From Roseobacter litoralis Och 149 (GTDB lineage: Bacteria; Pseudomonadota; Alphaproteobacteria; Rhodobacterales; Rhodobacteraceae), in NCBI RefSeq assembly GCF_000154785.2, contig NC_015730.1, forward strand, positions 4,425,501-4,489,500: a DNA stretch of 64,000 nucleotides. Direction: 5' to 3'. The position numbers and the translations under genes were made by a program. The notes under the pieces were generated by a model. The model had not been told where the DNA came from. It saw only the letters and a list, made by a program, of their open reading frames with translations, and did not search any database. Of the stretch, positions 19,528-64,000 are shown piece after piece (the first letter of the stretch is position 1; every line of letters starts with the position of its first letter).

Positions 19528-20348
19528 GGGACTGTTGCATTAATCAACTTGCTTGGCCACGGTTAAGCTTTTGAGGTTAGCCATGCCACGCGAATCGCCC
19601 TTCAAGTACCACCGCTTTCCACGCGAAATCATTCTTTGTGCGGTGCGCTGGTACCTGCGCTATGCTCTGCCTTATCAAGATGTCGTCGATTTGCTCGCAG
19701 AGCGCGGGATCCACGCTGATCGTTCGACCGTCTATCGCTGGGTTCATAAGTTTGCTCCGGAGATCACCAAAAGAACCGAAAAACACTTGCGCCGGGCCAG
19801 TGTCGAATGGCATGTCGATGAAACCTATATCCGCGTTGGTGGCAAATGGCGCTACCTATGGCATGCCATCGACGCAAACGGGCAGATGATCGACTTCCGT
19901 TTGACCGCGCGGAGGGATGCCAAGGCAGCTAAGGCCTTTCTTAACAAAGCGATTGAGCGTGTACGGCTCCATCGTCCGGTCATCATCGTGACAGACAAAG
20001 CCCCGACCTATCGCCGCGTCATCCGAGAGATCAACCACCGCTACGATCCGCATTTTGACAGTACCCGACACATCGACCGAAAGTGGCGCAATAACCTCAT
20101 TGAGAGCGATCATGCGGCGATGAAGCGGATCCTTGGATATCGTCAGAGCTTTCGATCTTTACGATCGGCAAAGGCAACCTTGAGCGGTATAGAAACTATC
20201 CGAACGATCAAACGCGGCCACATCCAGCACAGACAACCCGGCGTCCTGGGCGAGATCGCGTTTATCGATGCCCTCTTCTATGGCTCCGCATGAATTCTGG
20301 TCATATGAGGGCCCATGCATGTCGTCATCGGATTAATGCAACAGTCCC
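19528..20348 (+). mobile_element. IS6-family insertion sequence, copy 1
   Basis: An 821-bp element bounded by inverted ends GGGACTGTTGCATTAAT (left) and its complement at 20,332-20,348. It contains one intact transposase gene. A copy encoding an identical protein lies inverted at 28,729-29,549. The 8-bp flanks (GCTCAACG left, GTCTCATC right) do not match, so there is no simple target duplication. This suggests recombination or deletion after insertion. On its right it cuts into an older, different IS6-type transposase relic. Confidence 0.93.
19583..20293 (+). CDS. IS6-family transposase
   Basis: DDE transposase of 236 residues counted from ATG 19583 (MPRESPFKYH); an upstream in-frame start at 19553 would add ten residues read from the IS end. 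A helix-turn-helix region lies at about 30-60. The catalytic triad is D79 ('EWHVDETYIRV'), D138 ('IIVTDKAPTYR') and E174 ('NLIESDHAAMKR'), and the final 'GIETIRTIKRG' is typical of IS6. The gene is intact and its product is identical to that of the second copy, implying recent activity. Confidence 0.95.
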   Translation: MPRESPFKYHRFPREIILCAVRWYLRYALPYQDVVDLLAERGIHADRSTVYRWVHKFAPEITKRTEKHLRRASVEWHVDETYIRVGGKWRYLWHAIDANGQMIDFRLTARRDAKAAKAFLNKAIERVRLHRPVIIVTDKAPTYRRVIREINHRYDPHFDSTRHIDRKWRNNLIESDHAAMKRILGYRQSFRSLRSAKATLSGIETIRTIKRGHIQHRQPGVLGEIAFIDALFYGSA

Positions 20349-20510
20349 GTCTCATCTTTTACCCGGCAGTCGATCACGAAGTGATCTACCGAGAGGGCAC
20401 ATGCCATTGAATCCCCCGCCATGCGCGGTGCTGGCCGTATGCGTGCTTGCGGATCTCCAGCCCGAATTTCTGCACCCAATGGTAGGGTACAGTGACGGTA
20501 GGTCTGAGCG
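20349..20510 (-). pseudogene. Relic of a second IS6-type transposase, interrupted by a palindromic element
   Basis: On the minus strand, codons read 'YHWVQKFGLEIRKHAYGQHRAW', then 'RGIQWHV', then a 41-bp palindromic insertion (20,357-20,397), then 'DET' at 20,349-20,356. Joined together this is the well-known IS6 stretch QWHVDET containing the first catalytic Asp. The gene is then cut at the Thr codon by IS6 copy 1. It is a different subtype from the intact copies. The 5' part beyond about 20,510 is not recognisable. Confidence 0.75.
20357..20397 (-). repeat. Palindromic element, copy E5
   Basis: A 41-bp insertion with hairpin arms GATCAC/GTGATC around GAA, flanked by CCCGGCAG on one side and CTACCGAGAGGG on the other. 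It matches the copies at 27,705, 36,766, 62,483 and 63,107. Removal joins CAT-GTG to GAT-GAG on the minus strand, giving uninterrupted IS6 transposase codons without any duplication. It directly follows CATC. Confidence 0.8.
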
Positions 20511-26934: not shown

Positions 26935-27176
26935 GTTAATTCTCCTTTGCATCCCTAACTGCTGCGAGATGGAATTGTTCATTCTTGAGACCGGTTAAGG
27001 TAATTTTTTAAAGAGAAGTTCTGCTTGCCGCCTGCTTCTGTACGCTGCTTTTACACCATTTACTGCAAGAGGCTAGGCTTCGATGAGGCCCCTTTTTTGT
27101 GCATTGGCGAGGATGGACCTGTCGCGGTTTGATGCCGCCCCTTTGATAGCATTTACTGCAACAAAGGAGACTGACT

Positions 27177-27452
27177 ATGGGACTGAAACGGACGGACGAA
27201 TTTCGCCAAGATGCGGTGCGTATCGCGCTGACCAGTGGGCTGACACGCAAACAGGTGGCTGACGATCTGGGTGTAGGTATGTCCACACTGAACAAGTGGA
27301 TCACAGCGCATCGAGACACGGATGTGGTGTCAAAAGAGGATATGAGCCTCGTTCAAGAGAATGACCGGCTGCGCCGCGAGAACCGTATTCTCAAGGAGGA
27401 GAGGGAGATCTTAAAAAAGGCCACCCAGTTCTTCGCGGGCCTAAAGCAATGA
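27177..27452 (+). CDS. IS3-family transposase OrfA
   Basis: A 91-residue helix-turn-helix protein that recognises the IS ends ('FRQDAVRIALTSGLTRKQVADDLGVGMSTLNKWITAHRD') with a C-terminal leucine-zipper-like coil ('NDRLRRENRILKEEREILKKA'). Normally a -1 frameshift fuses it to OrfB. It overlaps orfB by 4 bp. The gene itself is intact, but the partner is broken, so the element cannot move on its own. Confidence 0.92.
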   Translation: MGLKRTDEFRQDAVRIALTSGLTRKQVADDLGVGMSTLNKWITAHRDTDVVSKEDMSLVQENDRLRRENRILKEEREILKKATQFFAGLKQ

Positions 27453-28350
27453 GATTTAGGTTCATTGAAGAACACAGCGAGAGCTTCCCCACCAATCGGC
27501 TGTGTGATGTCGTTGGCGTCAGCACACGCGGGCTACGCGCATTTCGAAGCCGGCCAGCCAGTCGCAGACAGCGGTCTGATTTGGTCACGCTGGCGCACAT
27601 CAAAGAACAATCTCGTCTGAGCCTTGGCAGCTATGGCAGGCCGCGCATGACTGAGGAGTTGAAAGAGATTGGCCTGGATATCGGTCACCGCCGTGTTGGC
27701 CGCCCCCTCTCGGCAGATTTGGCTTTGCCAAATCGCCTGTCGGGCAGTGGATGCGCCAGAACGGCATATCAGTGGTCAGAACACGCAAACACAAGGTCAC
27801 GACGGATAGAGATCATAAGTTCAATATAGCACCGAACCTACTGGATCGTGACTGCGCGGCAGATGCGCCAAACCAGAAATGGGCGGGCGACATCAGCTAT
27901 GTCTGGACCCGTGAAGGCTGGGTGTATCTGGCTGTGATCTTGGACCTGCATTCTCGCCGTGTCATCGGCTGGGCCGTCAGTAACCGCATGAAGCGTGATC
28001 TAGCGATACGGGCGTTGAACATGGCCATCGTATTCCGTGCGCCACCAAAGGGCTGCATCCATCACACGGATCGCGGTAGCCAATATTGTTCTCACGACTA
28101 TCAAAAGATTCTGCGCCAACATGGGTTCAAGGTGTCGATGTCTGGGAAGGGCAATTGCTACGACAATGCGGCTGTCGAGACGTTCTTCAAAACCATCAAG
28201 GCCGAGCTGATCTGGCGGCGGTCATGGGAAACCAGGCGGCACGCTGAGATGGCAATCTTTGAATACATCAACGGCTTCTACAGTCCACGCCGCCGTCACT
28301 CAGCACTGGGATGGAAAAGCCCTGTCGCATTCGAACGGAAGGTGGCTTAA
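27449..28350 (+). pseudogene. IS3-family transposase OrfB, interrupted
   Basis: Two frames together give a nearly complete OrfB. 27,449-27,703 encodes the N-terminal part ending '…IGHRRVGR'; 27,751-28,350 encodes the rest beginning 'MRQNGISVVRTRKHKV'. The DDE core is present ('WAGDISYVWT', 'HHTDRGSQYCS', 'NCYDNAAVETFFKTIKAELI'). Between them lies a 45-bp palindromic element that shifts the frame; IS3 homologues read GRLMRQNG here. The catalytic part remains open from the internal ATG, but the N-terminus is separated. Confidence 0.88.
27705..27749 (-). repeat. Palindromic element, copy E1
   Basis: A 45-bp insertion within IS3 orfB. The central hairpin is GATTTGGC-TTT-GCCAAATC, flanked by CCCTCTCGG on the left and CGGGCAGTG on the right. 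On the minus strand it directly follows CATC, as in other copies. Excision leaves the expected Arg-Leu-Met codons except for one missing base. The longer stem distinguishes it from the 41-bp copies. Confidence 0.8.
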
Positions 28351-28388
28351 ACGAGCACTAGGGGCGGCACTAAAACGGGACAGCTCCA

Positions 28389-35285: not shown

Positions 35286-35809
35286 TCGGCTCATTATCTA
35301 TGACAACCCGATCCTGCACACCATTAGTGGCAATCAGCCGCTGACAAGTCGCCGCGCCGCAACCTTGTCGTGATATTTGAAGAGCGTGAAATTAAGGAAT
35401 TTTCCTGTCTTTCTCGATTGCGCAAGGATAGTGGGTTCACTTTACGTTGACCTTGATACAAGTTCTACCCATGCGCCAAGATAGCAGTGGCAGCTGCTTT
35501 AGCGCTTAGGCCCTTTTCCGGATGAAATGTTGATCGTTTCGTTGTTATCGCAAATTGCCCCAAGATGATCGACAGGGCGGCTTCTGTGGTATCAATGGTT
35601 GCCTAAATTTTCTTCAAAATGCCAACAGTACAATAACGAACGACGACGGCCCGAGATAGGAGTGGACGCTGACCTGCCTTTGTAAGAGATCAATAGATTG
35701 TGTGCAGCTTAGCAAGTCGCTGTTCTGATGGAGTGGATGCCCCTCCCGACGGCATCGAGATTTGCCATGCTGGTACTGTTTTAACAGACCAGAAACTGAG
35801 GAGGCGACA
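35286..35809. other. Intergenic DNA upstream of an IS110 relic
   Basis: About 520 bp with no gene recognised. Its right end (from about 35,730, including a TGTTTTAACAGACC near-palindrome and AACTGAGGAGGCGACA before the ATG) is probably the leader and left end of the IS110-family element that follows. Confidence 0.4.
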
Positions 35810-36876
35810 ATGGACAAGGTTACAATCATCGGAGTGGACTTGGCAAAGCGCAGTTTTCAGGTGCATGGGTCATCAGCTGATGGCAGTGTTCTATTCCGTA
35901 AGAAACTATCCCGTGCGCAAGTTGTGCCATTTTTTGCACAACAGCCAGTTTGCATCGTTGCTATGGAGGCTTGCGCAACCACGCATGACTGGGCGCGCGA
36001 GATCGGGGCGCTCGGCCATTAGGTGAAGCTAATACCGCCTATCTATGTGGAGCCTTTCGTCTAACGGCATAAGAACGATGCTGCTGATGCAGAAGCGATT
36101 CCCGAAGCTGCCTCACGTCCGACGATGCGAACAGTCGCTGTGAAAACCCATGACCAGCAAAGTCGGGCGGTTTTGTTCCGGACACGTGACCTGCTCCTGA
36201 GACAACGCACGCAAATAATCAATGCCCTGCGGGCTCATTTCTCCGAGTTTGGTAAGGTCGCACCTAAGGCTGCGACTAATATCAAACGCCTGAAGGACGT
36301 TCTGGAAGATCCTAAGAATGGTTTGCCACAGATAGTCACAGACATTGGGTCGATCTACATTGACCGAATTGCTACGCATACTGATCAGATCAGCAAGCTT
36401 TAGAAACAGGTGCGTACCGAAGCGACAAAAGACGATGCCGCACGCCGTCTCCAAACCATGCCAGGCATCGGCCCAATCACGGCCATGGCTGTCTTTGCTT
36501 TCGCCCCGCCCATGGAGATCTTTCGTAGGGGTCGGGATTTTGCAGCCTGGGTTGGGCTGGTACCGAAACAGCATTCGACGGGCGGAAAGCAAAGGTTAGG
36601 CCGAACATCGAAGATGGGGCAGAGAGATATCCGCAGGCTCTTGGTCATCGGTGCCATGTCTGTCGTGAAGGTGGCGGTCCACAAAGGTGCCCCTGAAGGA
36701 TCGTGGCTCCAAAGGATGCTTGCAAGGAAATCACGTATGGTCGTCGCTGTTGCGCTCGCAAACATCCCTGTCACACATGCTGTGCATGTTTTGCCGGTCA
36801 GTGGATAGCGCGCCGGTTATGGGCTATGTTGGTGAAATACGAAGATTACAGAGACCCGCCCATCGCCGCCGCGTAA
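35810..36876 (+). pseudogene. IS110-family transposase, broken by three stops and a palindromic element
   Basis: One frame runs from ATG 35,810 ('MDKVTIIGVDLAKRSFQVHG', the DEDD RuvC-like start) to 'LARKSRMVVAVALAN' near 36,763. Premature stops lie at 36,020 (TAG), 36,062 (TAA) and 36,401 (TAG), with no frameshift between them. The C-terminal domain has 'MPGIGPITAMAVFAF' and 'DFAAWVGLVPKQHSTGGKQRLG'. A 38-bp palindromic insertion (36,766-36,803) then interrupts it. Removing that insertion restores '…LANMIARRLWAMLVKYEDYR', ending at TAA 36,874. The element is dead. Confidence 0.88.
36766..36803 (-). repeat. Palindromic element, copy E2
   Basis: A 38-bp insertion in the IS110 transposase. The hairpin ACATGC-TGT-GCATGT is flanked by CCCTGTCAC and GCCGGTCAGTG. 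Excision rejoins AAC-AT with G-ATA-GCG in frame without duplication. On the minus strand it follows TATC. It is the most diverged of the five copies but keeps both ends. Confidence 0.7.
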
Positions 36877-55509: not shown

Positions 55510-55860
55510 TGGACCTGTCGCGGTTTGATGCCGCTCCTTTGATAGCATTTACTGCAACAAAGGAGATTGACTATGGGACTGAAACGGACGGACGAATTCC
55601 GCTAGGATGCGGTGCGTATTGCGCTGACGAGTGGGCTTACGCGTAAGCAGGTGGCTAATGATCTTGGTGTCGGAATGTCGACGCTGAAAAAGTGGATCAC
55701 GGCGCACCGAGACACAGACTTGGTTTCGAAAGAGGATTTAGAGCTCGCCAAAGAGAATGATCGACTTCGACGTGAAGTCCTGCCCCTCAAGAAGGAGAGG
55801 GAAATCTTAAAAAAGGCCACCCAGTTCTTCGCGGGCCTAAAGCAATGAGGTTTAGGTTCA
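55510..55860 (+). mobile_element. IS3-family element, 5' fragment
   Basis: It begins with TGGACCTGTCGCGGTTTGAT, the same left end as the IS at 27,114, and continues through orfA into the first codons of orfB (…TTTAGGTTCATTG), where similarity stops at about 55,860. The rest of the IS has been lost and unrelated coding DNA follows directly. Confidence 0.85.
55573..55848 (+). pseudogene. IS3-family OrfA with nonsense mutation
   Basis: Equivalent to OrfA at 27,177 with many silent changes, but codon 11 is TAG (55,603-55,605) where the intact copy has CAA ('DEFRQDA'). The rest of the frame ('…AVRIALTSGLTRKQVANDLGVGMSTLKKWITAHRDTDL…') is open. A truncated orfB start overlaps its end. Confidence 0.88.
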
Positions 55861-61396: not shown

Positions 61397-62332
61397 TGTC
61401 ACTGAGAACTGACCCATGTGGACACATTGCCCTGACGGTTTTTGTCGGGGAGACATGGAGTGATAGGCATGGGATTTTTGAGTGTTATTCGACGCTGGGC
61501 GTTGCGTGACAAAATGCCAATTCGTGAGATTGCACGGCGCACTGGTGTTCCAGCCCGGTGAAGCATTCCAGTTCGACTGGAGCGAAGACTGTGCCACGAT
61601 TGGGGGCGAACGCGTCAAACTGCAAGTTGCACACACCAAGCTGTCGCACAGCCGCGCCTTTATTGTGCGGGTCTATCCTTTGCAGACACATGAGATGCTA
61701 TTCGATGCACACTGGCATGCCTTCCGCGCGTTTGGCGGCGTTCCGGGGCGTGGCATCTATGACAATATGAAGACGGCCGTGGATCGTGTTGGGCGTGGTA
61801 GGCAGCGCGATGTCAACGCACGCTTCAAATCGATGGCGAGCCATTACGTCTTTGAACCTGAGTTTTGTAATCCGGCAGCGGGCTGGGAGAAGGGTCAGGT
61901 TGAGAAGAACGTACGGGATGCACGGAACCGGCTGTGGCAGGTCATGCCGGTCTTCCAAGATCTGGGAGAGCTGAACCAGTGGCTGGAAGAACGCTGTATC
62001 GCTCTGTGGGCGGAGACGCCGCACCGGGAATTGCCTGGTTCAATCGCCGATTCTTGGGACGCTGAGAAGCCTATGTTGATGGTTCTGCCACCAGCCTTTG
62101 ACGGGTTTGTTGAACACAGCAAGCGTGTGTCGCCAACATGCTTGATCACCTTTGAACGCAACCGGTACAGCGTGCCCGCCAGTTTTGCGAACCGCCCTGT
62201 CAGCCTTCGTGTTTACCCGGAACGACTTGTGATCGTCGCAGAGGGGCAAACCGTCAGCAGGCATGACCGCATCATTGATCGATCCCACCGCAAGCCAGGC
62301 AAAGTCATCTATGATTGGCGCCATTATCTGGC

Positions 62333-62373
62333 GCTCGCCATTGTCCTCGGACCCATGGCGGACGATGGCTCGC
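62333..62373 (+). repeat. In-frame palindromic insertion in istA (E7)
   Basis: Flanked by GCTCGC direct repeats (62,333 and 62,368). Near-perfect inverted ends CATTGTCC / GGACGATG enclose a CCATGG centre. It adds about 11-12 codons (VLGPMADDGSL) before 'QRKPGALRNG' and keeps the frame open. Family IstA proteins read directly from 'YLAxV' into 'QRKPGALRNGAPF' here. Confidence 0.65.
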
Positions 62374-62482
62374 TCCAACGCAAACCGGGGGCATTACGCA
62401 ATGGTGCACCGTTTACAGAGATGCCCGACATCTTCCGTCGACTACAGGATCACATGTTGCGCAAAGAAGGCGGAGATCGCGA

Positions 62483-62523
62483 CCCTCTCGGGACAATGCT
62501 CCGCAATACCCTGACGGGCAGTG
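62483..62523 (-). repeat. Palindromic element, copy E3
   Basis: A 41-bp insertion in istA with ends CCCTCTCGG and CGGGCAGTG and a degraded central stem (AATGC-TCC-GCAAT). Removal joins CGC-GA with G-ATG-GTT to give the expected 'GGDREMVDIL' exactly. On the minus strand it follows CATC. About 33 of 42 positions match copy E4. Confidence 0.85.
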
Positions 62524-62824
62524 GATGGTTGATATCCTGTCCTTGGTTCTACACCATGATGAAAGCGCTGTTCTGCGAGCAGTGGAACTGGCGCTGGAAG
62601 CCGGGGTGCCGACGAAGACGCATATCCTCAACCTCCTGCACAGGCTGATTGATCCAAAGCGGACAGATCAACCAGAGATCGATCCACCAGATGCCTTGGC
62701 TTTGGAAACAGCCCCAATGGCAAACGTAGATCGGTACGACGATCTGAGACAAGCAGGAGGAAAGCGCCATGCGTCATGATCCTGCAGGAGCCTCAATCGT
62801 CATCATGCTGCGCAGTCTCAAGCT

Positions 62825-62872
62825 GCGTCTCGCCAAAGGCGAGCATCCATAGTCGCGCACCTTTGGTGCGAC
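62825..62872 (+). repeat. Double-hairpin insertion in istB (E6)
   Basis: About 47 bp containing two adjacent hairpins, CTCGCC-AAA-GGCGAG and GTCGCGCACC-TTTG-GTGCGAC, placed between 'LRSLKL' and 'MAHAVDD'. IstB relatives have only one or two residues there. It is unrelated in sequence to the E1-E5 elements. Confidence 0.7.
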
Positions 62873-63106
62873 ATGGCGCACGCGGTTGACGATCTGGTTA
62901 CACAAGGTGTTCCAGCATTTGAGGCGGCCACTCCGATGTTGTCCCAACTGCTCAAGGCGGAAATGGCCGAACGGGAAGTGCGTTCGATTGCCTATCACAC
63001 GAAGGTGGCGCGCTTCCCATCATACAAGGACCTGACGGGCTTTGACTTTACGTCGAGCGACATCAATGAGGCCACGGTCCGACAGCTCCATCGCGGTGAG
63101 TTCATA

Positions 63107-63147
63107 CATTGCCCGGCAGGCGATTGCGAAGCAATCTGCCGAGAGGG
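63107..63147 (+). repeat. Palindromic element, copy E4
   Basis: A 41-bp insertion with perfect GATTGC-GAA-GCAATC hairpin, starting CATTGCCCGGCAGGC and ending CTGCCGAGAGGG. Excision rejoins TTC-ATA with GAG-AAT-GCG, giving '[14 protein letters not shown]' without duplication. It follows CATA. It is the best-preserved copy. Confidence 0.88.
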
Positions 63148-63719
63148 GAGAATGCGGAAAACGTCGTTCTCATTGGTGGACCTGGCACCGGCAAAAGCAC
63201 CGGCAAAAGCCATGTCGCCACAGCTACCGGCGTGCAGGCGATCGAGCATCATCGACGCAAGGTGCGCTTCTACTCCACCGTCGAATTGGTCAACGCGTTG
63301 GAGCAGGAAAAGGCCCTTGGAAAGGCAGGGAAATTGGCTGAGATGCTCACAAAGATCGACTTGGTCATCCTTGACGAACTCGGTTATCTGCCATTCAGTT
63401 CGTCAGGCGGTGCGCTGCTCTTCCATCTACTGAGTAAGCTCTATGAACGCACTAGTGTCATCATAACCACCAACCTCAGCTTCTCAGAATGGGCACAGGT
63501 GTTCGAAGACGCCAAGATGACAACGGCGCTGCTAGATCGCTTAACGCATCGCTGCCACATCCTCGAGACTGGCAACGACAGCTACCGCTTCAAAGCCAGC
63601 GCTGAGGCCGCAAAGAAAACAGGAAAGGAGAAAGCAACATTGACTGCGTCATAGACAAAGACGCATAAACAAGGGGGGGTCAAATCTCGGTGAAAATACC
63701 GGGTCAGTTCTCAGTGACA

Positions 63720-64000
63720 ATTAACAGCCAGGAACGCGTTTGGAAAATGCGATCAGCTTTGGTCGAGTTAAAATCCCCATCGCCAAGTCACTCCACCGGT
63801 CCCGCAGTGTCAATAAGTAATACGGTCCCCATAAGGAATCAAATAGCAGATTCGCAACTAAGCGGCAAGTTAAGTGAGCGTTTAAGATTCTTGATCAGCT
63901 CGTGACCCAAGTTCGACTATACAATCGTAAGGTGTTAGGAATGAAGAGCCATACACCAGATACCGTTGGATTCCACAAAAAAGCACAATATATTGAAGGC
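63720..64000. other. Flank after the IS21 element
   Basis: 281 bp with no recognised gene. A short open stretch after the IS end reads 'LENAISFGRVKIPIAKSLHRSRSVNK*' (63,739-63,816), which could be the tail of a disrupted gene, but no family is recognised. The window ends here. Confidence 0.4.

Follow-up and report, generated by a model that had tools for sequence, protein, structure and literature searches.

IS200/IS605 elements insert without target duplication, with a short fixed sequence 5′ of the insertion. REPs are short multicopy palindromes that have a conserved tetranucleotide next to the hairpin, and they are thought to move as single-stranded DNA (PMC3733652 and PMC8266576, in the sections drawn on here). 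Rickettsia palindromic elements (RPE) are described, in part of PMC10969869, as inserts of about 150 bp located in frame in diverse genes. The palindrome analyzed here was found in the window, i.e., the whole 64,000-nucleotide stretch of Roseobacter litoralis DNA under study, and it has something in common with each of several known systems. Like the REPs of the REP/TnpA-REP/RAYT systems (GTAG and CGTC super-families) it is a short multicopy palindrome, and its CRTC target resembles the CGTC tag. Like RPE it is a palindromic insert within protein genes of alphaproteobacteria. It shares with IS200/IS605-type mini elements the absence of target duplication, a fixed 5′ sequence and hairpin ends, and with MITEs a small size and an apparently non-autonomous nature.

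The differences are as marked. REPs are mainly intergenic, whereas about nine in ten of these elements lie in or beside IS genes. In addition, CRTC is here a host target in front of the insert, 12 fixed bases of the element away from the stem, and the cited sections of PMC3733652 and PMC8266576 do not list a fixed GAGAGGG end as a REP feature. Compared with IS200/IS605 mini elements it has one hairpin only, and neither a parent element nor a flanking Y1 gene was found in the 13 Y1 loci scanned. A search of freely readable texts retrieved no description of this element. We file it as a kind of mobile palindrome that is REP-like in its working but departs from REPs in not being mainly extragenic and in not being matched by a RAYT.

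In the explanation that we favor, and to which we give a somewhat better than even chance, the element is a non-autonomous, REP-like mobile DNA hairpin riding on ISs. The fixed 5′ end, the self-complementary stem-loop and the fixed 3′ end would form one structured unit, which would insert precisely, to about 1 nt, after CRTC and before G without target duplication. The most likely chemistry would be that of IS200/IS605 and REP/TnpA-REP systems, in which single strands are cut and joined, and the moving enzyme, presumably of the corresponding class, would be encoded elsewhere. The insertions would break IS transposase genes, and the elements would persist and spread mainly because loaded ISs (those carrying the element) get copied and exchanged between genomes, probably by hitch-hiking. 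We infer mobility because many sites carry the same stem-loop; element anatomy, covariation, the clean target, the IS bias and transposition of some loaded ISs are directly supported by the data. A structured 40-bp element that resides mainly in genes belonging to mobile elements of other kinds is a parasite of parasites. As a natural test, it bears on whether broken transposases stay in play and on how such small palindromes move when no enzyme is visible, the latter being a question left open for CGTC-type REPs (PMC3733652). Many IS pseudogenes in Roseobacter-group genomes may share one cause.

All five palindrome sites of the initial annotation are present in the window (Table 1), that at 36766 being weak. 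On the minus strand of 36766-36803, model R1 gave no match at E<=10, and CACTGACCGGCA, a short stem and GACAGGG were recognized by eye. R1 was made after the fact from an alignment of 23 distinct copies, which includes three window copies. The strict pattern TGCCNRNCAGN{10,24}CYGAGAGGG matched three times in the window, versus 0.01 matches expected. Transposase matches cover at least about 8% of the window, and four elements fall within these matches or at their edges. The claim that the palindrome is always inside a transposase gene stands for these four; the element at 20357 is beside its IS6 gene and not clearly within it. The IS3 host piece is matched by Pfam family rve. Exact excision restores the frames of istA and istB, and that of IS110 by eye, but IS3 requires the removal of 44 rather than 45 nt; the proposal that four of five excisions restore the frame holds only if a 1-nt boundary shift is allowed. 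Elsewhere in the window, 55510-55529 is a lone IS3-type end (TGGACCTGTCGCGGTTTGAT) for which the pattern finds no partner, perhaps an IS remnant.

Table 1. Elements in the window and the transposase features that surround them
Feature	Position	Strand	Remarks
Divergent element (TTTTACCCGGCAG...GAGAGGG)	20357..20397	+	R1 E=0.039 for 20362-20397; about 65 nt past the open IS6 frame
45-bp element in IS3 orfB	27705..27749	-	R1 E<=1e-8; loaded IS in eight copies in the genome
Divergent element in IS110 transposase	36766..36803	-	Recognized by eye; not reaching the model threshold
41-bp element, antisense within istA of IS21	62483..62523	-	R1 E<=1e-8
41-bp element, sense, in istB of the IS21 that also carries the 62483 element	63107..63147	+	R1 E<=1e-8
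IS6 transposase open frame	19544..20290	+	Pfam DDE_Tnp_IS240
Loaded IS3 copy	27114..28388	+	Ends inferred from copy alignment and left inverted repeat
IS110 transposase match upstream of insert	35804..36763	+	Pfam Transposase_20
istA, part before insert	61482..62480	+	Pfam Mu-transpos_C_2
istB, part after insert	63148..63651	+	Pfam IstB

The family consensus is CACTGCCCGGCA, then a variable, covarying stem-loop closed by G and C/T, and then GAGAGGG. The fixed parts, a 12-nt 5′ end and a 7-nt 3′ end, stay constant while the stems covary. The 297 distinct elements with well-matched ends are 34 to 45 nt long, 146 of them 41 nt and 45 of them 37 nt; the length is a multiple of 3 in 39 and not in 258, which, with hosts that are mostly transposases, sets them apart from the longer, in-frame RPE. 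The 9 stem pairs are formed at 96.0% in the 146 distinct 41-nt elements, compared with 74.5% (SD 1.0) when arms are swapped between elements, and the 45 distinct 37-nt elements give 96.8% versus 74.4% in the swapped-arm control. When four typed elements were folded as single-stranded DNA, only some of the predicted folds contained the expected long hairpin (z of -1.7 to -2.3), and this partial result counts against the mobile-hairpin explanation. A known RNA family was rejected, as Rfam 15 gave no match over the element, at E<=1 in window 62001-64000, and only one sub-threshold match in loci L412, L418, L425 and L432, at L425:2285-2597, away from the element.

Two deviating forms were seen. 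A variant with 5′ T-TTACC(C)GGCAG, often with 3′ GAGAGGC, occurs in L063, L069, L099, L105 and L137 and at window position 20357; it may be a second subfamily rather than decay. The element at L127:1859-1899 is chimeric, and two neighboring elements of L020:1501-1614 look by eye like its sources. It looks like the product of recombination between two elements kept in L020, with deletion of the host DNA between them.

Profile searches of the window's genome and of Rhodobacteraceae indicate that the family is general. In the genome of the window (G000), R1 yields 38 matches at E<=10 and 25 at E<=0.05, and at E<=1e-4 it matches 98 of 295 Rhodobacteraceae genomes. The strict pattern is present in 14/59 relatives, own genome included, with a single match in the reversed control, and in none of the 24 genomes sampled outside the family but within the class. 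Over named genomes the exact pattern occurs in at least 119 stretches; among the 80 matches listed, nearly all are from Rhodobacteraceae; Vreelandella neptunia and Labrenzia are among the exceptions. Five viral contigs also carry the element. One stem-loop was found with up to 22 different flanks, some of which are homologous, diverged sites. The highest load seen is that of G341, the metagenome-assembled Rhodobacteraceae genome of locus L337, with 100 model matches at E<=0.01.

The target was profiled on the 192 of 243 distinct-flank sites that have well-matched ends. It reads CRTC followed by G (C.62, R.85, T.68, C.76, then G.73), with little else. DNA homologues of the empty site (>=70% identity) were available for 264 of 395 sites: 191 without net change, 43 lacking one base, 25 with one base too many and 5 with other outcomes. 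These alignments show that insertion is mostly clean, precise to about 1 nt and without target duplication, unlike that of MITEs. The same codon is used in proteins only about 30% identical that carry different stem-loops, and sites have therefore been re-used.

No mobilizing gene was found. The Y1 transposase domain PF01797 is absent from the element-bearing genomes G031, G020, G016 and G021, where a REP with its RAYT would have one; it is present in G004, G025 and G003 and partial in G000. A Y1/HUH linkage was rejected for lack of strict co-occurrence, and a Y1 helper may have acted in the past. At three Y1 loci of G004 the element directly follows the Y1 match, and we regard Y1 there as another host for this reason. 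Neither intermediates nor fresh insertions were seen among the sites examined; this and the missing mobilizing gene count against the mobile-hairpin explanation.

Many genes carry several inserts. Three to six elements were present in 28 of 124 loci of a wider sample (loci of up to 8 kb, more for viral contigs). In L018, one gene contains four elements (38, 40, 38 and 38 nt), two per orientation, and removal of all four leaves a stop-free 308-aa IS3 OrfB. In L102, a gene with five elements stays in frame as far as the fifth, at which a 1-nt shift is left. Plasmid pP97_b of Phaeobacter porticola P97 carries a four-element IS3, and its distributed annotation has no coding gene under the match. 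Genome G031 harbors six copies of a four-element IS3 and no intact element-free copy; beyond these six, nothing exceeds 36% identity except a fragment of 62 residues that contains two stops. An exact-pattern search for the ends of this IS returned exactly the six pairs and two lone ends, with no further complete pair. Perfect 3-bp duplications flank three of the six copies and are absent from the other three, and in G000 they flank two of seven full-length copies of a one-element IS3, the others being without. Some loaded ISs nevertheless transposed with their inserts in place. In G004, a five-element IS3 is present in at least five copies without any codon difference over the 231 to 251 codons compared; one of the five copies shows four elements in that stretch, and a sixth locus lacked the IS3.

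This multiplication of heavily loaded ISs, with a stop-free frame after removal of the inserts and invariant codons in G004, argues for an alternative in which the insert is tolerated, i.e., cells or ISs remove or bypass it by IES-like DNA excision or by an intron- or bypass-like step, and loaded transposases work. The scarcity of stop codons in the elements points the same way: 245 of 1782 frames of distinct elements contain stops, versus 496 (SD 17) in stem-order shuffles, and 124/297 elements are open in all six frames, though most lengths shift the frame; in both counts, related elements are not independent. We nevertheless consider tolerance unlikely. Of 330 unambiguous sites, 171 regain the frame on exact removal (52%, with one third expected by chance), the other two classes having 90 and 69 sites; the input was 387 sites, 361 with a spanning homologue and 31 of them ambiguous. 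Restoration is clearly above chance but far from universal. The inserts are found in both orientations relative to the host (136 sense and 194 antisense, some of the latter possibly reflecting opposite-strand open frames) and in all three phases, and no RNA- or codon-based step fits this well; an intron or bypass would call for the sense orientation. Translational bypass was rejected, both orientations occurring and no repeated take-off or landing codon being apparent by eye at the few sites viewed.

Changes among loaded copies do not look purifying. The G031 copies differ by 5 nonsynonymous versus 2 synonymous codons, and two loaded G117 copies by 23.2 versus 10.8 (dN/dS of about 0.64); within genomes, the changes are too few or frame-confounded. 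Between IS types, dN/dS is mostly about 0.03 to 0.4 where computable, low values that may predate insertion. Also against tolerance, element-free intact relatives at 93% identity to the IS3 of the window occur elsewhere, several loaded hosts have other lesions and are visibly decayed, and independent insertions with different stem-loops occur at one site. A specific form of tolerance, in which a DNA-level system would recognize the fixed ends, excise the hairpins precisely and keep ISs mobile, making them the bacterial equivalent of ciliate IES, appears quite improbable.

The likeness of elements at homologous sites is relevant to both tolerance and the mobile hairpin. In ISs with 60 to 90% identical flanks, the elements differ by <=4 positions in 55 of 101 rows and by <=2 in 23 of 101, against a random-pair background of 10% and 3.8%, respectively. 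The values are 50/93 and 23/93 when rows repeating one IS pair are collapsed, and 29/72 and 12/72 when one IS5 site group is left out. In 15 pairs chosen for alike elements, these are about 93 to 100% identical, whereas the flanks are mostly 70 to 90% identical right up to the element, as tolerance would have it. Gene conversion was rejected, no conversion tract being found in the 15 pairs. Either the same subfamily returned to the same site, or the insert was inherited and conserved. Simple independent insertion does not predict such likeness, which counts against the mobile-hairpin explanation.

The mobile-hairpin explanation must also account for the location of the elements. All 25 own-genome copies at E<=0.05 are in IS genes, which represent six families (in part named by eye): IS1182 type a (4) and type b (3), IS21 istA (2) and istB (2), the eight-copy IS3 (8), another IS3 (1), IS110 (1), IS66 tnpB (1) and tnpC (1), and IS6 (2). 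The hosts were named from translations, with Pfam support for 9 of 10 pieces scanned, two of the ten from weak window sites; tnpB, the second IS3 and both IS6 hosts were named by eye only, one IS6 piece having been scanned without a match. In the wider sample, tblastn placed 145 of 171 copies in (120) or within 250 bp of (25) a transposase match. These 171 elements passed a boundary filter, viral contigs included; a chance match, L381, was left in and flagged, and L071-L073 were also rejected, by eye, as chance matches. The 26 unmatched copies comprise 5 in transposases by Pfam, 7 IS-like by eye, 8 elsewhere, 5 undecided and L381. In a random 40 of 149 pieces (>=45 aa, from sites chosen for retrieval), 27 have a transposase-type Pfam family, two of these below cut-off; a further piece weakly matches an IS66-associated family, another matches a C5 methylase, and 11 have no Pfam match; other frames at the randomly sampled sites resemble IS genes by eye, L214 being uncertain. 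The concentration in transposase genes noted in the window thus extends far beyond it, and the contrary outcome, mostly intergenic copies without transposase enrichment, is not what was found.

The IS bias is strong yet not total. Eight of the 171 copies are clearly outside IS genes by eye or Pfam: two intergenic, one in a RelE-type gene, one in a tyrosine recombinase, one in an RHS-like fragment, one beside a SnoaL-like gene and two that share an intergenic cluster. Random insertion followed by neutral retention would seem to call for more intergenic copies than this, and the shortfall counts against the mobile-hairpin explanation. It also weighs on the initial suggestion of relaxed selection, taken as the sole cause, in which insertion may occur anywhere but copies survive in dead IS DNA only. 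Inserts that usually break the frame and the additional lesions of several hosts are consistent with that suggestion, but it predicts many neutral intergenic copies; in G341 also, 40 of 53 checked matches are in or near transposase matches. Several loaded ISs have moreover transposed, and some frames are intact after in silico removal, which makes relaxed selection alone improbable. Random insertion in one "factory genome" followed by export by ISs was not supported in G341 either. The other initial suggestion, that insertion into IS genes silences them and is favored, taken here as a directed or favored brake on IS activity, fits the about a dozen host IS families (named from Pfam or by eye) and the five elements in one gene of L102, but we hold it doubtful, as repeated insertion into an already broken gene adds no benefit and loaded ISs multiplied.

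In L034 and L400, the element breaks a RelE-type toxin-antitoxin gene, a non-transposase host identified by Pfam for L400 and by likeness for L034. In G337, four intergenic copies of an identical 36-nt element (L412, L418, L425 and L432, near 1474-1560 in each) are each part of a larger conserved repeat (about 85 nt) situated a short way downstream of genes; they perhaps represent a different, extragenic use of the same hairpin.
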